Shown one piece after another: positions 8,183-32,329 of a stretch of DNA of 34,154 nt. The DNA lies in the IMG/VR virus record IMGVR_UViG_3300032046_000115, positions 1 through 34,154 of that record; one strand, written 5' to 3'. The stretch comes from a virus. A model generated the notes under the pieces. That model saw only the letters and a list, made by a program, of their open reading frames with translations, had not been told where the DNA came from and made no database searches. Both the position numbers and the translations under genes were made by a program. How positions within the stretch are numbered: position 1 is the first letter of the stretch; each line of letters opens with the position of its first letter.

Positions 8183-9358
8183 TTATTGTCCATCGAACAG
8201 CGACATCCGATCGGCGGGCTTCCTGCAATGCGGAGAGAAGAACAGGGCTTCTCGATGCCGATTCCTTTGCCCGCGAGATTCGGCGCCGCCGGCTATATGG
8301 CTGTATCCGCCTACCGCAGACCATCTGTAAACGGTCCAGCCCTCTCGCAACAGGGACTCGTGCTCCTCATAGTACCCGGCCAGGACGATGCGATAGTCCG
8401 GGTCCGCCGCGCGCGTCCTGCACCACTCGCGAACGTCGTGGGCAACCGTCTGCGAATCTACGGCGTACAGGGCTTTATCGCGGTCTGCCACGTCTGAATA
8501 AGGCGGATCGAAAAAGATTCCGCACGGCCTGCCCGGCCTGGTCTGCCAGTTGCCGCCGCAGACCCGGCTCCAGTCGCCGCAAACGACGCGAACGTACCGC
8601 AGGCGCTCGCTCAATCGCCGAAACCATGTGTAGATGTTCAGAGTGTACGGCTCCCGGACATCCTTGCCGCCGCCGTTCCCCAGGTTCGGTATCTGGCCCT
8701 TCGCGTGGACGCCCTTGCCGCCGTCCGCCAGGTGCGGTATCTTGCCCTTCGCGTGGACGCCCTTGCCGCCGTCCGCCAGGTGCGGTATCTTGCCCTTCGC
8801 GTGGACGCCCTTGCCGCCGTCCGCCAGGTGCGGTATCTTGCCCTTCGCGTGGACGCCCACGCCGCCGGTCCCCAGGTGCGGTATCGCGCCGGGGCAGATT
8901 AGGCCGTGCCCGATCCAGCATGAGGCCGCCCAGATGTAGTACCCGGCCAGCTTGGCGTCGAAATAGGAATCGTCGGCGCAGAGCTTTTCGAGCAGCGCCC
9001 CGTTCTGCTCGTTCAAGACCCGCTTACGGCACATCAAGTCCGCATGGTTCACAGGCCAGTCGCACCGCTTGGCGACGGCATCGGGGTCCGTTTGAAGACT
9101 GCGCCACGCGTTGCAGATTTGACCGTCGGAATCGTTCACCGTTTCCACATGCCGGGCCGGGTCCCAATCCGGCCTTGACAGCAGCACCGCGCACGAGCCG
9201 CAGAAAGCCTCGACGTAATGCCCGACGTCGCCAAGTGCCGCCCAAACGATGTCCGCCACGAGACCCTTGCCTCCGAAATACGCTACGGGAACGGAGCTTT
9301 GAGGCCCCGTTCCGTCGTGCTCCTTTCGATCGTCATGCTCGGCATCCTTGAAGTCCAC
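8183..9358 (-). CDS. dam: D12-class DNA adenine N6-methyltransferase
   Basis: 391 aa from a GTG at 9358 with GGAG 8 nt upstream. The frame stays open to 9652, but that part reads through the end of another gene. Motif I is YFGGKG (residues 27-32), followed by VEAFCGSCAVLLSR; the catalytic motif is FFDPPYSDVADRDKALY. It transfers a methyl group from S-adenosylmethionine to adenine N6, protecting phage DNA or altering expression. Between WAASCWIGHGLICP and the LNIYTWFRRLSERLRYVRV segment lies an array of 16-residue repeats (IPHLADGGKGVHAKGK). No restriction enzyme gene is adjacent, so this is an orphan methylase. Confidence 0.88.
   Translation of the reverse strand: MDFKDAEHDDRKEHDGTGPQSSVPVAYFGGKGLVADIVWAALGDVGHYVEAFCGSCAVLLSRPDWDPARHVETVNDSDGQICNAWRSLQTDPDAVAKRCDWPVNHADLMCRKRVLNEQNGALLEKLCADDSYFDAKLAGYYIWAASCWIGHGLICPGAIPHLGTGGVGVHAKGKIPHLADGGKGVHAKGKIPHLADGGKGVHAKGKIPHLADGGKGVHAKGQIPNLGNGGGKDVREPYTLNIYTWFRRLSERLRYVRVVCGDWSRVCGGNWQTRPGRPCGIFFDPPYSDVADRDKALYAVDSQTVAHDVREWCRTRAADPDYRIVLAGYYEEHESLLREGWTVYRWSAVGGYSHIAGGAESRGQRNRHREALFFSPHCRKPADRMSLFDGQ
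8645..8884 (-). repeat. 48-bp tandem repeat inside the methylase gene
   Basis: Four 48-bp units begin at 8884, 8836, 8788 and 8740, with a degenerate fifth at 8692. Units two to four are practically identical and encode 16 residues each, so copy number changes keep the frame. Confidence 0.95.
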
Positions 9359-9572
9359 GTCCGATTCTCCGACACGCCCTGATCCACAATCCCTCGACCC
9401 GACGATCCGCCGGAATCGCCCCAAGCCGGATCGCTTGCCTTCTCTCGGTTCCCGTGAGGTCATGATGGGGCATAGACGCCTTGTCCTGAAGCCATTCCCG
9501 ACGGAGACTGAGCTTGGCCGCGAACGCGTGAAGCTCATCGAGGTCTCCGCCGCGGAGCCAGTGCCCAAATCT
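9333..9572 (-). pseudogene. DUF4031 gene lacking its start
   Basis: A 79-codon open frame reads LDELHAFAAKLSLRREWLQD then MPHHDLTGTERRQAIRLGAI, the hallmark of DUF4031 proteins. These are small phage and bacterial proteins of unknown function. The family's N-terminal 15-20 residues are missing: a TGA lies at 9573-9575, no ATG, GTG or TTG precedes the conserved part, and a B-type repeat lies about 15 bp beyond. It overlaps the methylase start by 26 nt. Probably a decayed gene truncated at the repeat. Confidence 0.6.
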
Positions 9573-9590
9573 TCATGTTCGGCAAATCCG

Positions 9591-10019
9591 TCACTTCGTG
9601 CCTTTCGTGCTCTTCGTGGTTTCAACCTTTTTGATCCAGTCCAGCTCTTCATTCATCGCCCGGATCTTCTGGACCTGCTCGACCGTCATCGGGCCCCGGG
9701 CGTCGTACAGAATGATCCGGGCGATGCCGAACCCCGCCATCAACTCCTGCAACGTTCGGATCGCCTTGGCCCGGCCGGCATCTCCTTTGCCCGCGATGAT
9801 CTGCCGAACATCGACGCCTTGGTCCCGCAAGCCGCTCTCGTACTCGCAGCGGTACGTGAGCTCCCAGACCGCGATATTCTCCGGACCGTACGGCTCGCCG
9901 ACGAGCTGCATCAGCCGGATGCCGTCGTATTCCTCGGGCCGCTCGATGACCTCCGGCAGGCTGACGAGCAATCGACCCGGCTGGCGGCGAGGTCGGGCGT
10001 AACGATTTTTGATGGCCAT
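9591..10019 (-). CDS. Hypothetical phage protein with repeat-encoded C-terminus
   Basis: 142 aa. The core (LPEVIERPEEYDGIRLMQLV, AVWELTYRCEYESGLRDQGV, GFGIARIILYDARGPMTVEQ) reads as a well-formed globular domain. The last residues, ETTKSTKGTK, and the stop come from a B-type repeat, so the original C-terminus may have been replaced. There is no clear ribosome site at the start, where an A-type repeat lies. Family not recognised. Confidence 0.6.
   Translation of the reverse strand: MAIKNRYARPRRQPGRLLVSLPEVIERPEEYDGIRLMQLVGEPYGPENIAVWELTYRCEYESGLRDQGVDVRQIIAGKGDAGRAKAIRTLQELMAGFGIARIILYDARGPMTVEQVQKIRAMNEELDWIKKVETTKSTKGTK
9596..9622. repeat. B-type half-site
   Basis: A single TTCGTGCCTTTCGTGCTCTT-type unit ending CGTGGTTT. 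It encodes the tail of the gene at 9591-10019. Confidence 0.75.
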
Positions 10020-10046: not shown

Positions 10047-10135
10047 AACCACGAAGGACACGAAGCTCACGAAGGAAAACCCAAAATGGCTTTCTCGTTT
10101 TTCCTTTCTTCGTGTCTTTCGTGCTCTTCGTGGTT
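10047..10135. repeat. B-type hairpin element (89 bp)
   Basis: Left arm AACCACGAAGGACACGAAG and right arm CTTTCGTGCTCTTCGTGGTT are inverted copies around a centre containing AAACCCAAAATGG. It lies between two co-directional genes. Four similar elements occur in this window. Confidence 0.85.
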
Positions 10136-10144
10136 CACACATAC

Positions 10145-16487: not shown

Positions 16488-16566
16488 AACCACGAAGAGC
16501 ACGAAGGACGCGAAGAACCCCTTTCCTCTCCTTCCGGCCTTCGTGCTCTTCGTGAGCTTCGTGGTT
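16488..16566. repeat. B-type hairpin element between convergent genes
   Basis: AACCACGAAGAGCACGAAGG and its inverted copy surround AACCCCTTTCCTCTCC. It lies between the stops of a plus-strand and a minus-strand gene, where it could serve as a two-way terminator. Confidence 0.85.
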
Positions 16567-16579
16567 TGAACTCTTTCCG

Positions 16580-22242: not shown

Positions 22243-22620
22243 TTACGTCTGAGTCACCGTAATTTCGCCGATAGGAAAGCTCGGCGCGATGCTCGTGCCG
22301 GTAACGATCTGGGGGAACGGTAGCGGCGTCGAGTGGATCAAATTGCCGCCGGAGGCGGCGTCGAACAGGCAGACGTGCGTGATCGTGCCCCAGGCCCCCG
22401 TAGGTGTGGGAAACGTCACGGCGGCGACGTTGCTCTTGACGCCGGCGGCGGCCGCCGTCCAATCCGTCGTCTCGATCTCGACCCGGTCGTACGATCCGCT
22501 CGACGGCTCCGCCAGACCGCCGCCGTCCACGCCCGGATCGGCGGTGGACAATCCCGCCCAGACACTATCGGCGAGCAGGTATTCGACCAGTAGATTTGCG
22601 GCATAAGTGCTTAGGCTCAT
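22243..22620 (-). CDS. Phage tail fibre-type protein
   Basis: 125 aa; GGAGG lies 8 nt before the ATG, which overlaps the tape measure stop (ATGA). It reads WAGLSTADPGVDGGGLAEPS, then YDRVEIETTDWTAAAAGVKS and GAWGTITHVCLFDAASGGNL, a pattern typical of small phage tail-fibre/appendage proteins. It would be incorporated into the distal tail. Confidence 0.72.
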   Translation of the reverse strand: MSLSTYAANLLVEYLLADSVWAGLSTADPGVDGGGLAEPSSGSYDRVEIETTDWTAAAAGVKSNVAAVTFPTPTGAWGTITHVCLFDAASGGNLIHSTPLPFPQIVTGTSIAPSFPIGEITVTQT

Positions 22621-25145
22621 CCTCGGTTCCTCCCGGTGTGGTACATCACCAGTTGCTCACCCTCACGCCCTTCCATATCCTTGCGGTGCAGCAGGTCCCG
22701 CCGATCCACGATCGTCGCGTTGATCTGCATCTGCTTGGCGGCGATCTGCTTCAATACGGCGAGCATCTCACCGAAAGCCGGATTACCCCCGCCGCCGGCA
22801 TGGACGCCCAACCGGCCCGCATTGTCCCTGGCGAGAGGCAGGATGCCTTCCTCGCCCGCCTCGCCCATGACGCCCGTGCCCCGGGCGAACGGGAATAGCG
22901 TCGGCCGGTCGATGACGGTTCCCCGGCCGAAGGGGATGATGCCCCGCGTGCCGAAGACGTTGCCCAACCGGCTGACCGGGACGTCGTAATTGCCCGCGGC
23001 GGCCCCCGTGGATGTCATACCGCCACCGCCGCCACCGAACCCGCCGGCGATGCTGCCGCCCAGGTTCTTCAGGAACGTCGTCCCCAGGTCCATACCCTGC
23101 GTGATGATCGGCTTCCAGAGTTGCTCCTGCATCCAGTATTCGAGCATCTTGAGGCCGACCCGCTCCAGGGACTTGCCGAGGTCCTCACTGCGAAAGACCG
23201 CGTCCGAGAGGGACCCGACGATCCCATCCCGCATCTGGACCGCCAGTTGGCCTGCGATCTGGGCGGTCGTCAGGAGCGACTCCTGCATCTCCTCAATACT
23301 CTGCGACCAGCCCTCGCCGAACGTCACGTCCGCCAGGTCCCGGGCCCGCTGCATCTCGTTGACGACCCGCGTCAATTCCTCCCGCTGGGCGGCGGTCAGC
23401 TCCACACCCCGCTTGAATGCCTCGTTCGTCGCGTTCTGAATGACGGTCTGCCGCTCCCGCTCTTTATTGGTCAACCCGGCCAACCGGGCCTCATCCTGCA
23501 TCGCCCTCGTCGTCTGCTCGAGCTCGGCGTTGAAGTCCGCTTGCGCCGCCTTCAAGACGAGTCCCTCTATCTCCTGCCTCTCGGCAGCCGTCAGGTCCAC
23601 CGTGGTGCGCAGACCTTTGTTGTAATCCTCCTGAACGGCGGCGGCGGCCTTATCGAGCGACAATGCCTGCTGCCTCTGGAGTGCGTTCGTGCCGCGAATT
23701 TCGGACTCCAGACGCAGTTTATTCAGCACATCGCTCATGGCCGTGAGTTGCGATTCGGCCTGATCGCCCGCTCCTTCACGCCCGGCCCCGCCGGCCGTCG
23801 TGCCGCCGGGGAATAGATTGCGGGGCAACATCAGACCCGGACCCAGCACGCCGGGAATCGTTATGGTCTGACTGCGGATGTACTCCATTTGCCGGCGGGC
23901 CTTGCTCTCCTCGGCCCGCTTGCGCATCTCCCCGAAAAAGGTCTGCGTCCGCGTCACGTTGTCCGGCTGCTGCGCAATGGACCCGGATGGAGGCTGACCG
24001 CCCATCGTGCCAGCTACCTGGTCCACCAGCAAGCCCCTCCGCTCATTACGGAGTTGTCGATGGATTCGCTCGTACTCCGCCGTATCCTGGGGCGGCATCG
24101 TCTCAAAATGACCACCCCAACCCTGGCCTCGCCATTCCTCTTTGAATGCCCGCGGTTCTTCCGGGTGCAGCACGCGATATCGTTCTTGAGCCGCCTGCTG
24201 AGTCATCATCGGTCCAGCAAGCATCTCCGCCGTCGGACCAGCACCCCGCTGGGCTTCGCGGTATTTATCCACAACCCAGATGAGTGACGCCATAGGCTTC
24301 AGGATATCTGTCGTCGTTCGCTCGATCTGCGAGAGGAGATCGAGCACTTTGGCGGCAGCTACGCCGACGCTTTCCATCGCGGTCGTGCCGGTCGAACCGA
24401 ATCCCTCACCTGCCGTCGCCGCATCCGTGATCTGACCCGCGAAGGCTTCGACGTATGGAGCCAACTCGATGACGGCGCGATACAGTACTCCGGTCATGAT
24501 CCCGCGCATTTTGGCCAGTTCGACATTCGCGGCCCGCACGGTGTCGACGTCGAGCTGCGTCAGGACCAAACCCAGCTTGCGGCCCTCTTCCGCCTGGGCC
24601 GTCAAGGCGGCCGAACCCTTTTCCAACAGATCGAGGACCTCGGACTGACCCCGGCCGAAGACGTCATAGGTCAATCGGAGCCGGTCGCCCCGGTTCGTCA
24701 CCTGGGCCATCGCATCCGCGACCGAATAGAATACCTGGGCGGAGTCCATCTTGGACAATTGGCGGGCATTCAGACCGAGTTCCGCAAAGGCATACCGGGC
24801 CTCGCCGGCGCCCCGGCTCGCTTCCGATAGCCGCCGGGTCATCGCCTCCATACTGCGGTTCACCGTATCGGTTGCCAGGCCGGTCCGCCGGGCCGAATAC
24901 TGCAAGGCGGTCAGACCCTCCGTCGTGGTGCCGAGTTTCTCGGAGGCGTGGCCGATCTCTCCGATGTCCTTCGCGGTCTTCTGGAGTACGTAGCCTATCG
25001 AGCCGATACCGGCCAGGCCCACCGCCGTGACGGCGAGGGACTTCAGCGACCGGCCGAGCGTCGTCATCCCGCGGTCGATGCTCGACAGGCCCGCGGCACC
25101 GCGATTGAAAACTTCGAACACGATTCCAACGGTTGTCGTCGCCAT
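22617..25145 (-). CDS. Tail tape measure protein
   Basis: 842 aa, the longest gene of the tail module. The N-terminus (IVFEVFNRGAAGLSSIDRGM, TAVGLAGIGSIGYVLQKTAK) and KLGTTTEGLTALQYSARRTG are typical of tape measure proteins. Long coiled-coil stretches follow (QDEARLAGLTNKERERQTVI), and the C-terminus is Gly-rich (GGSIAGGFGGGGGG). It sets tail length and is ejected during DNA entry. It lies directly downstream of the frameshifted chaperone pair, as in lambda-like tails. Confidence 0.9.
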   Translation of the reverse strand: MATTTVGIVFEVFNRGAAGLSSIDRGMTTLGRSLKSLAVTAVGLAGIGSIGYVLQKTAKDIGEIGHASEKLGTTTEGLTALQYSARRTGLATDTVNRSMEAMTRRLSEASRGAGEARYAFAELGLNARQLSKMDSAQVFYSVADAMAQVTNRGDRLRLTYDVFGRGQSEVLDLLEKGSAALTAQAEEGRKLGLVLTQLDVDTVRAANVELAKMRGIMTGVLYRAVIELAPYVEAFAGQITDAATAGEGFGSTGTTAMESVGVAAAKVLDLLSQIERTTTDILKPMASLIWVVDKYREAQRGAGPTAEMLAGPMMTQQAAQERYRVLHPEEPRAFKEEWRGQGWGGHFETMPPQDTAEYERIHRQLRNERRGLLVDQVAGTMGGQPPSGSIAQQPDNVTRTQTFFGEMRKRAEESKARRQMEYIRSQTITIPGVLGPGLMLPRNLFPGGTTAGGAGREGAGDQAESQLTAMSDVLNKLRLESEIRGTNALQRQQALSLDKAAAAVQEDYNKGLRTTVDLTAAERQEIEGLVLKAAQADFNAELEQTTRAMQDEARLAGLTNKERERQTVIQNATNEAFKRGVELTAAQREELTRVVNEMQRARDLADVTFGEGWSQSIEEMQESLLTTAQIAGQLAVQMRDGIVGSLSDAVFRSEDLGKSLERVGLKMLEYWMQEQLWKPIITQGMDLGTTFLKNLGGSIAGGFGGGGGGMTSTGAAAGNYDVPVSRLGNVFGTRGIIPFGRGTVIDRPTLFPFARGTGVMGEAGEEGILPLARDNAGRLGVHAGGGGNPAFGEMLAVLKQIAAKQMQINATIVDRRDLLHRKDMEGREGEQLVMYHTGRNRG

Positions 25146-25164: not shown

Positions 25165-25245
25165 AACCACGAAGAGCACGAAGCTCACGAAGGGAAACCC
25201 AAAGAAGATTTTTCCCTCTTTCAGTTCTTCGTGTCCTTCGTGCTT
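25165..25245. repeat. B-type hairpin element, right arm shortened
   Basis: AACCACGAAGAGCACGAAGC and an inverted CTTCGTGTCCTTCGTGCTT around a centre with AAACCCAAAGAAG. It lies between the chaperone and tape measure genes. Confidence 0.8.
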
Positions 25246-25251
25246 GCATCT

Positions 25252-25952
25252 TTACGTCCTTGTCTTCGGTCCTCGTCGCCGCTTCTTCGGGGCCGGGCCC
25301 AGGAGCTGCCGCAGAATCCTCCCGGCTTCTTCCCCGGCTTTCTTATCGCCCAGCATCGCCCGGACCACATCGGCCAGGTAGATCGTTCGCAGGTTCTCAG
25401 CCGATTCGCCCCACGGGCATTCCCACTCGGCCAATTCCAGGCGGCGAAGCTCATAGTCGCTGAACCGCGTCTCGATCTCGCCAATAGGCAACCCATAATG
25501 AGCGCTCAGGCGAACGAGGAACCGCTCATGAACATCACTGCGAAGTTTTTTAGTATCTCGGGGTCTGCCTTACCCCCGACGGCGGAGACCTTCATGCACA
25601 AAGCCGTGAGCGGCGCCAGAATGATGGGGGGCCATTCGATCATCCGCATCAGGTCGATGTCCTTAAACAACAGCGTGCCGGCCTCGTCGCGCACGGAGCG
25701 GATGATCAATTTGACATCGGCGAACGCATCGTCGATCCGCTCGTCGCCATCGGGTTCGCGGACCTTGACGCACGAATCATACCATGCCCTCTTCTCGGTC
25801 GGCGTGAGGCCCCAGACCCAACCCTGTTTGCCGCTGGGCAGCATGAACGGCTCTTTCGGCCGCGCGTTGCGGTAGACCATGAAGTCATCGGCGGTCGCCT
25901 GCGGCGGTTTGGCCGCGGGCCGGGTCTCCGGAACTTTGATTTCTTCGGTCAT
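25252..25952 (-). CDS. Tail assembly chaperone, -1 frameshift product (G-GT type)
   Basis: Reading the gene at 25952 in frame 0 to codon AAC (25547-25545) and then slipping back one base continues in frame for 97 codons: LRSDVHERFLVRLSAHYGLP, then ETRFSDYELRRLELAEWECP. The slippery heptamer A AAA AAC is in the correct phase. The product is about 233 aa. The extension ends in a basic tail (PAPKKRRRGPKTRT). Long chaperone forms of this kind bind the tape measure protein during tail assembly. The extension is not independently started: only a TTG exists (25491). Confidence 0.85.
25506..25952 (-). CDS. Tail assembly chaperone, short form
   Basis: 148 aa; AGGAG lies 5 nt before the ATG. Contains FMVYRNARPKEPFMLPSGKQ, LTPTEKRAWYDSCVKV and a helical C-terminus (LKNFAVMFMSGSSFA). 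Position between the major tail protein and the tape measure, plus the slippery heptamer near its end, identifies it as the G-like chaperone. Confidence 0.8.
   Translation of the reverse strand: MTEEIKVPETRPAAKPPQATADDFMVYRNARPKEPFMLPSGKQGWVWGLTPTEKRAWYDSCVKVREPDGDERIDDAFADVKLIIRSVRDEAGTLLFKDIDLMRMIEWPPIILAPLTALCMKVSAVGGKADPEILKNFAVMFMSGSSFA
25545..25551 (-). promoter_or_regulatory. Programmed -1 frameshift site AAAAAAC
   Basis: On the minus strand the bases read CTA AAA AAC in frame 0, giving the X XXY YYZ heptamer A AAA AAC. It lies 39 nt before the frame-0 stop. Confidence 0.85.
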
Positions 25953-26007: not shown

Positions 26008-26415
26008 TTACGCCGCGGCGGTGTAGGTCCACTTGGTGACGGGGGCGATCGTGACGTCGAAGGTCATCTCGTCGCTCACCTCCATCGAGACGGCGCCGAC
26101 CTTGGCGATCCGGCCGAGACCCACGTGCGTATTGCCGATGGAGTCGGTGATCGTGAAGGTGTCTTGGGTATTGGCGCCGGCGTTGGTCCGCAGGGTGCCA
26201 TACAACGTCTTGGTCGTGGCGTCATAGACCATTTTGACCTGGGCGTTGCCCTCATCGAGCGTCGTCGGCAGCCGGGTGCCAATCCGGTCGGTGTCCGTGA
26301 TGCAGCGGACGACCTTGACTGCGGCCTCCAAACCCTCGATGGTGACGCTCTCGATGTTCGGGAATGTCCCGAGGGCATTGCCTACGACTGAACCGCCGTA
26401 TCCGGTACTGGGCAT
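26008..26415 (-). CDS. Major tail (tube) protein
   Basis: 135 aa; AAGGAG lies 7 nt before the ATG. A beta-rich protein (SVTIEGLEAAVKVVRCITDT, DEMTFDVTIAPVTKWTYTAA) at the position of the tail tube gene, directly before the chaperone pair. Short length and small-residue composition fit. The call relies mainly on gene order. Confidence 0.7.
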   Translation of the reverse strand: MPSTGYGGSVVGNALGTFPNIESVTIEGLEAAVKVVRCITDTDRIGTRLPTTLDEGNAQVKMVYDATTKTLYGTLRTNAGANTQDTFTITDSIGNTHVGLGRIAKVGAVSMEVSDEMTFDVTIAPVTKWTYTAAA

Positions 26416-28392: not shown

Positions 28393-30234
28393 TCATCTAA
28401 TTGGATCGTAGATATCCTGGAACAACTCTTCGATCGTGATGCCGATGCCCGGGATCACAACATCGAGGATCTTCGCCAGATCGATCGTAGCGGTACCGAT
28501 GTCCGTGTGCAGGGCGCTGAGGCCATAGGTGCCATTCGCCAGAACACTGTTCGCGTCCATATCGACTTGAACCTTGTCCCCGATTTGCGAAATGCCTGCA
28601 AGGTCGGTGATGATGAGCGCCCGGGCTTGGGTCCAGTTGACCAGCAGACTGTTCGCGTCCATCGCCGCCTGGACATTGTCTTCGATATTGTTCAACGTCA
28701 GGTTGGCCAGCAGACTATTCGCGTCCATATCGGCGACGATCTTGTCCCCGATCTGCGAGATACCTGCAAGGTCGGTGATGATGAGCGCACGGGCTTGGGT
28801 CCAGTTGACCAGCAGACTGTTCGCGTCCATCGCCGCCTGGACATTGTCTTCGATATTGTTCAACGTCAGGCGGTCGGTGATCGCCTTGATGAGCGACTGG
28901 TTTGGCTCCGTGGCCAGTTCAATGTTGGCACCGACCAGCAGTGTGCGGAGTTCCGACGCAGTATCCACCGCGCCCGTATCGGTCAGAATGTCCGTGATGT
29001 TGCTGTTCGCCGTGCCGAGGTTCGTGGCGAGCGTGGCACTGTAGCCATAGGCCGTCAGCGCCGCCTGCGCGGCGGCCTGGGCATCGGCGGCGGTCAGGCC
29101 CGGATTTGTGGTGGTCGTATCGGTGACGGTCCCGCCATTCGGCACGAAGGCATAGTAGGTCGTCGTGTCGGGAGTGGACCCAGCCCACGAGCCCGAGATC
29201 ACCAGCGTATCGTTGGCGTCATAGCTATCCCGGACGGCGTAGACATCCGTGCCGGATCCCGTCCCGCTTCTCAGGGCCACGAGCCCGGTCATATTGTCGG
29301 CTCGCACGTCGCCGCTGGCACATTGGATCGTGTTCGCCGTTCCGGCCTGGGCAACGCCCTCACAGGCCAGATAGCTCGACGGCGACATCTCGATCAGGTA
29401 GGTCGTCGTGGCGTTCGGCGTCCCAAGCGGCCAGGTGCCCACGATGGTCATTGCCTGAGTCGCACCGTTGTACGACAAACCCGTCTGGCTCGTCGGCGAG
29501 CCCGTACCGGTCAGTATTTTGATCGTGCAGGGAATGTAGGCACTGTTGTCTGTAGAGCTTCCGGCTGCCAGCACTATCGTATTGCTCGTTCCGCCCGCTC
29601 GCGCTGTGCCCGAAATCTGCAACGGGTCGCCGCCGCCCGCCCTCTGCGCGTACCACGCCAGCGATTGCTTGATCTTGTTGTTGGTGAGCGTGTTGTCGAG
29701 AATCTCGTCGATGGCGCCGGTGGCCAGTTCACTCGACCCGATGGCGTCGGCGGCGATGGCCGCCGCGTTGATGGCCCCGCTCGCGAACGTGCTGGTCGTG
29801 ATGGATGAGTTCGTCGGACTGACCGTGGCCGTGCTCAGGTCGAAGACCCAGGCCCCGCTGGCATTGCCGAACGTCGGGATGTAATAGATTTCGTCTCCGA
29901 ACAGTGGCGGGGCGCTGGCGTCGTTCACGTCCACCGCGACGACGGCCGCCGTCATTTCCGTGGCGCTGAGCACCAACGAGAAGGACCGGCCCAGGTCAGT
30001 GACGGCGTTCGCGGCCCGCGCCTCGCTCGCCCCGTCCTGAAAGACGTGGACGTCCGCCAAAGCGGGCGCAGTCTCATAGAACCGCCACGGGGAGTTGCTG
30101 TCGGCCACGGCGAAGTACAGCGTGTATTGAGTCGCGTACTTGGCGGGGGGAAGCCAGTGAACGGTCGCCGAAGCGATTGTCGCCAACAGAAGCCCCAGAA
30201 CGATTGCGAGTGCCGTCTTTTTCATGGCTTGCAT
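28393..30234 (-). CDS. Large exported repeat protein
   Basis: 613 aa from the ATG at 30234 (AGGAG about 9 nt upstream); an alternative ATG is at 30225. The N-terminus is a Sec signal (MKKTALAIVLGLLLATIASA). The first 130 mature residues form a beta domain (YATQYTLYFAVADSNSPWRF), the middle is Thr/Ser/Gly-rich with repeated ISGTAR and VISGSW strands, and the C-terminus has two near-identical 56-residue repeats (LNNIEDNVQAAMDANSLLVN, then ALIITDLAGISQIGDK). The content resembles phage appendage proteins, but the signal peptide implies export to the cell surface. It may be a host-altering protein. No homologue recognised. Confidence 0.7.
   Translation of the reverse strand: MQAMKKTALAIVLGLLLATIASATVHWLPPAKYATQYTLYFAVADSNSPWRFYETAPALADVHVFQDGASEARAANAVTDLGRSFSLVLSATEMTAAVVAVDVNDASAPPLFGDEIYYIPTFGNASGAWVFDLSTATVSPTNSSITTSTFASGAINAAAIAADAIGSSELATGAIDEILDNTLTNNKIKQSLAWYAQRAGGGDPLQISGTARAGGTSNTIVLAAGSSTDNSAYIPCTIKILTGTGSPTSQTGLSYNGATQAMTIVGTWPLGTPNATTTYLIEMSPSSYLACEGVAQAGTANTIQCASGDVRADNMTGLVALRSGTGSGTDVYAVRDSYDANDTLVISGSWAGSTPDTTTYYAFVPNGGTVTDTTTTNPGLTAADAQAAAQAALTAYGYSATLATNLGTANSNITDILTDTGAVDTASELRTLLVGANIELATEPNQSLIKAITDRLTLNNIEDNVQAAMDANSLLVNWTQARALIITDLAGISQIGDKIVADMDANSLLANLTLNNIEDNVQAAMDANSLLVNWTQARALIITDLAGISQIGDKVQVDMDANSVLANGTYGLSALHTDIGTATIDLAKILDVVIPGIGITIEELFQDIYDPIR
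28540..28878 (-). repeat. 168-bp tandem duplication in the exported repeat protein gene
   Basis: The segment around 28661 recurs at 28829, exactly 168 bp apart (56 codons), with very few differences. Edges are approximate. Confidence 0.85.
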
Positions 30235-32104: not shown

Positions 32105-32329
32105 ACGATCTCCTTTCCAAGAGTTTCAACCACGAAGGGCACGAAGCTCACGAAGAGAGAACTGCAAAGGGGTTTTCCCTTGGCGTTCTTCGTGTCTTTC
32201 GTGCTCTTCGTGGTTCATTGTTTTCGATTCCTCGCGGCTATAGACCAGTCCGCGCAGTCCGGGCATCGGCAGGGGCAGACTCCGCATCCCGGTCCGCCTG
32301 CCCCGCCGCATGGTTCACCTCGATCAGCG
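32105..32329. other. Gap after the capsid gene with a B-type hairpin
   Basis: 225 bp holding the hairpin at 32128-32215. On the minus strand a Cys-rich frame (CGGAGGPGCGVCPCRCPDCA) runs between stops without a standard start codon. Two other short frames with ATG or GTG starts overlap it (GAGGTGAACC before the ATG at about 32311). None is convincing. Confidence 0.5.
32128..32215. repeat. B-type hairpin element (88 bp)
   Basis: Left arm AACCACGAAGGGCACGAAGC and inverted right arm with TTTCGTGCTCTTCGTGGTT around a centre with AACTGCAAAGGGGTTTTCCC. The most complete copy of the family together with 10047-10135. Confidence 0.85.

Follow-up and report, generated by a model that had tools for sequence, protein, structure and literature searches.

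A probable lambda-like G/GT tail assembly chaperone gene with a −1 programmed frameshift in a previously unannotated virus

Results

Two chaperone frames overlap at a slippery heptamer

Our combined findings indicate that the window, a 34,154-base virus record, very probably carries a lambda-like G/GT tail chaperone gene with a −1 programmed frameshift, as judged from its sequence and that of its relatives. The structural genes of this genome (61.6% G+C) lie on the minus strand. Among them, a zero-frame ORF of 148 codons (25506..25952, minus strand) encodes a G-type tail assembly chaperone whose C-terminal sequence ends in ADPEILKNFAVMFMSGSSFA before the stop codon. Near its 3′ end, at nucleotide 402 of the ORF, is the heptamer A AAA AAC (25551-25545, minus strand), read in the zero frame as CTA AAA AAC. 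From the last C of this heptamer the −1 frame continues for 97 codons, beginning with LRSDVHERFLVRLSAHYGLPIGEIETRFSDYELRRLELAEWECPWG and ending with a TAA at 25254-25252 (the T-type extension, 25252..25545, minus strand). The predicted GT fusion is 233 aa long, and G alone is 148 aa. Both frames are open over 64 nt (25506..25569, minus strand), between a −1 stop at 25572-25570 and the zero-frame stop at 25508-25506. Since the −1 frame is closed 7 codons upstream of the slip, slippage would be confined to this overlap, and the heptamer lies inside it.

There is no ATG near the beginning of the T frame, the earliest being codon 63. The first start codon of any kind is a TTG at 25491, 18 codons past the slip, with no Shine-Dalgarno sequence ahead of it. 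The phase of the heptamer, the 97 open codons after the slip and the lack of an ATG start for T, all described in an earlier note on this DNA, were thus borne out. T is overlapped, in an incorrect frame, by a spurious 91-codon ORF with an ATG start (25496-25221). Calling the G/T frameshift corrects the annotation here, since ORF-calling programs would overlook the gene or call it wrongly.

The chaperone ORF sits between a tail tube gene, assigned by position, and the tape measure gene. Directly upstream is the probable major tail protein (26008..26415, minus strand), which was assigned from position only, had no match in the family search and shares 34% aa identity with its counterpart in a divergent relative, L014. 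Directly downstream is the tail tape measure protein (22617..25145, minus strand; phrog_9483, 7.7e-47). The G protein matches the tail assembly chaperone family phrog_344 at 6.4e-6, a modest profile score of 27 bits, and its L014 homologue matches the same family at 3.6e-13. A structure model of G, predicted with moderate confidence (mean pLDDT 60), has its best PDB match in 2OB9, the tail assembly chaperone of HK97. Foldseek gave this match a probability of 1.00 and an E value of 0.018, with 14-17% identity over 90-98 alignment columns. For T, no Pfam, PHROG or NCBIfam family matched, and its model, an all-helical prediction of fair confidence, found no match among viral models with Foldseek. 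We named it T because of its position and conserved frame; the T-type domain proposed in the earlier note therefore stands as to frame and position, and not as a match to a known T family.

The junction is conserved in a divergent relative

We estimated how often such a junction would arise by chance by recoding the same G protein with the window's own codon usage. AAAAAAC fell at the observed site in 0.8% of the recoded trials, and any in-phase heptamer fell within the overlap in 12%. In a genome of 61.6% G+C, the −1 frame was open for at least 97 codons from 21.5% of positions, so the window sequence by itself is suggestive only.

The same junction was found in two relatives. One, L012, is an independent, near-identical contig with 2 differences in 901 bases, none of them at the junction, and 94-98% aa identity to the window in two upstream proteins. 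The other, L014, was the one clearly divergent homologue found for this particular G/T pair, with protein identities of 44% for G and 50% for T (tblastn E 1e-22 for the latter). Its junction has the identical CTA AAA AAC, again with T in the −1 frame, which is closed 5 codons upstream of the slip. In five L014 genes, G among them, CTA accounts for 1 of 127 Leu codons, and that single CTA is thus the heptamer's. Retention of CTA AAA AAC in a relative with 44-50% identity puts the heptamer beyond chance. Protein homology between the window and L014 also runs unbroken over the slip point, from EILKN into LR(S/G)D.HERFL, and the differences in the first 67 T codons (24, 23 and 37 at codon positions 1, 2 and 3) fit the pattern expected of a coding frame. 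For a reading drawn from sequence comparison, conservation in L014 is decisive, and together with the arrangement of the frames it supports the central proposal of the earlier note, that a −1 frameshift joins two tail chaperone frames.

Homopolymers are common sites of error, and the change of frame could in principle come from faulty sequencing or assembly of the A run, or from an indel there that inactivates the gene. Yet the run of six A is short, and the same junction recurs in the independent contig and in the relative of ~50% identity. We consider the chance of such an artefact practically negligible, the reading being largely refuted by L014.

A separate T protein, translated from the TTG at 25491 or through restart coupled to the stop codon of G, is highly improbable. 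The TTG does exist 18 codons into the T frame, and coupled restart is conceivable in more distant loci (below), many of which have a GTG or ATG past the G stop. However, the conserved T sequence LR.D.HERFL begins at the slip, upstream of the TTG, which itself has no Shine-Dalgarno sequence and no counterpart in L014, where the earliest start in the T frame is codon 35. An internal start also leaves the heptamer unexplained. The earlier note had regarded a homologue with its own start for the second frame, and no heptamer, as telling against frameshifting. Part of this check was carried out, and the closest divergent homologue retains the heptamer and lacks the alternative start. With the TTG both unconserved and downstream of the conserved T sequence, the comparison favours frameshifting.

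A AAA AAC recurs in a wider clade

Wider loci were gathered through the capsid protein. At the gene junction that precedes the tape measure, 26 loci of this clade carry A AAA AAC and 4 carry A AAA AAA, and no clear A AAA AAN site was seen there in L044, L059, L064 or L075. In the 26 loci the heptamer is immediately followed by the stop codon of G (A AAA AAC TGA or TAA, as at L022:6193, L039:14030, L050:7769 and others), with a −1 frame of ~95-116 codons leading to the tape measure gene; some of these loci are near-duplicates and hence do not represent 26 independent events. In L015, L016, L018 and L061, A AAA AAA lies 87-93 nt before the G stop. In many loci of the clade the T frame offers a GTG or ATG shortly past the G stop, making coupled restart conceivable in that group. 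The window T, used as a query, had no match in that frame at any wider-clade locus.

Scanning genomes with the capsid protein gave 7 loci, mostly in Omnitrophota MAGs, and a scan with the G-T fusion as query gave none. The window G and T had no tblastn match in 50,697 phage records, and neither did the L014 T when searched against phage records. The L014 G had weak matches only, one of them to an annotated chaperone in phage Shagrat, in whose G no in-phase XXXYYYZ heptamer turned up; T has a weak motif likeness to the T frame of this Rhodococcus phage. Six phage records whose tape measure is related were also examined; at the equivalent place every one has a heptamer in phase together with a −1 ORF (CCCAAAG, GGGAAAA, TTTTTTC, AAAAAAG, GGGAAAG and AAAAAAC).

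Dispersed and tandem repeats in the window

Apart from the chaperone genes, the window contains dispersed elements composed of 9-nt CACGAAGNN units between 3294 and 32212, mostly in intergenic gaps (e.g., 10047-10136, 16488-16567, 25165-25246 and 32128-32216). With up to 3 mismatches, 39 matches to CACGAAGRACACGAAG were observed versus 0.6 expected. Several of them are arranged head to head in pairs that form long hairpins when folded, and the elements as a whole resemble REP- or MITE-like repeats within a phage genome. The stretch separating T from the tape measure gene holds one of them, which is present in L012 and absent in L014. A second dispersed family, of ~7-nt ATTTACG units, occurs in about 15 places between 1386 and 26975. 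Tandem 48-nt repeats at 8669-8860 add 16-residue repeats (GKIPHLADGGKGVHAK) to a probable DNA adenine methylase gene (8183-9652, minus strand), a function guessed from sequence, and a tandem 168-nt duplication, 92% identical, lies at 28535-28870 within an ORF at 30258-28393 (minus strand).

Discussion

From the observed gene order, frames, heptamer and conservation, we infer that most ribosomes would stop at 25506 and produce the 148-aa G-type chaperone. A minority would shift back by one base at the A AAA AAC heptamer, re-pair on AAA AAA and continue for 97 codons to yield the 233-aa GT fusion. In lambda, gpG and gpGT are made at 30:1, with G binding the tape measure and T binding the tail tube protein (PMC5009743). 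By analogy, G may coat the tape measure protein in this virus, and the T part of GT may recruit the tail-tube subunit.

The earlier note took A AAA AAC to be an efficient slippery sequence, which holds for eukaryotic ribosomes and not for E. coli, where it scores as a low-efficiency motif (PMC4066793, PMC5009743). A low slip rate would be in keeping with a chaperone requiring only small amounts of GT. We looked for a conserved stimulatory RNA structure past the heptamer and found none, and downstream RNA folding was nothing unusual (z of −0.97 and −0.87 in the window, +1.8 and +1.6 in L014). Many wider-clade loci have a Shine-Dalgarno-like GGAGG ~7 nt upstream of the heptamer; the window lacks it, and we therefore do not claim it as a stimulator there.

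The A run could also act at the level of transcription, with RNA polymerase slipping to give mRNAs with altered numbers of A, as in some IS elements and in T. thermophilus dnaX (PMC5009743). Reports of high-efficiency slippage of this type concern runs of 9 A or T (PMC5009743), against 6 in the window, and the conserved codon phase and the final C fit tandem tRNA slippage. Polymerase slippage is thus exceedingly improbable here, and we retain ribosomal frameshifting as the explanation.

The use of A AAA AAC is already known from bacterial IS elements (PMC4066793). Tentatively, a sizeable group of phages without cultured representatives, prophage-like loci in Omnitrophota MAGs among them, may have settled on this heptamer despite unrelated T domains, often placing it right against the stop codon of G. 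If so, the ribosomes or tRNAs of their hosts may slip on it far better than those of E. coli. Our findings add a conserved case in which phages of uncultured bacteria use A AAA AAC. The mechanism is a textbook one, and in this previously unannotated virus the G/GT junction is a solid but ordinary example, within an already known kind, of the frameshifting common to many tailed phages.

Similar to the G/GT system of phage lambda, the window has its chaperone gene before the tape measure, a heptamer near the 3′ end of G, and a T that is reached only by a −1 slip. The lambda heptamer is G GGA AAG, whereas that of the window is A AAA AAC, and, unlike in the lambda system, the window T has no detectable similarity to a known T family. 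The likeness of G to the HK97 chaperone 2OB9, its best structural match, is known here from a model of moderate confidence. The haloarchaeal virus HCTV-2 differs in being an archaeal virus; its g-t frameshift uses the same heptamer, A_AAA_AAC, in a tail chaperone gene (PMC5009743).
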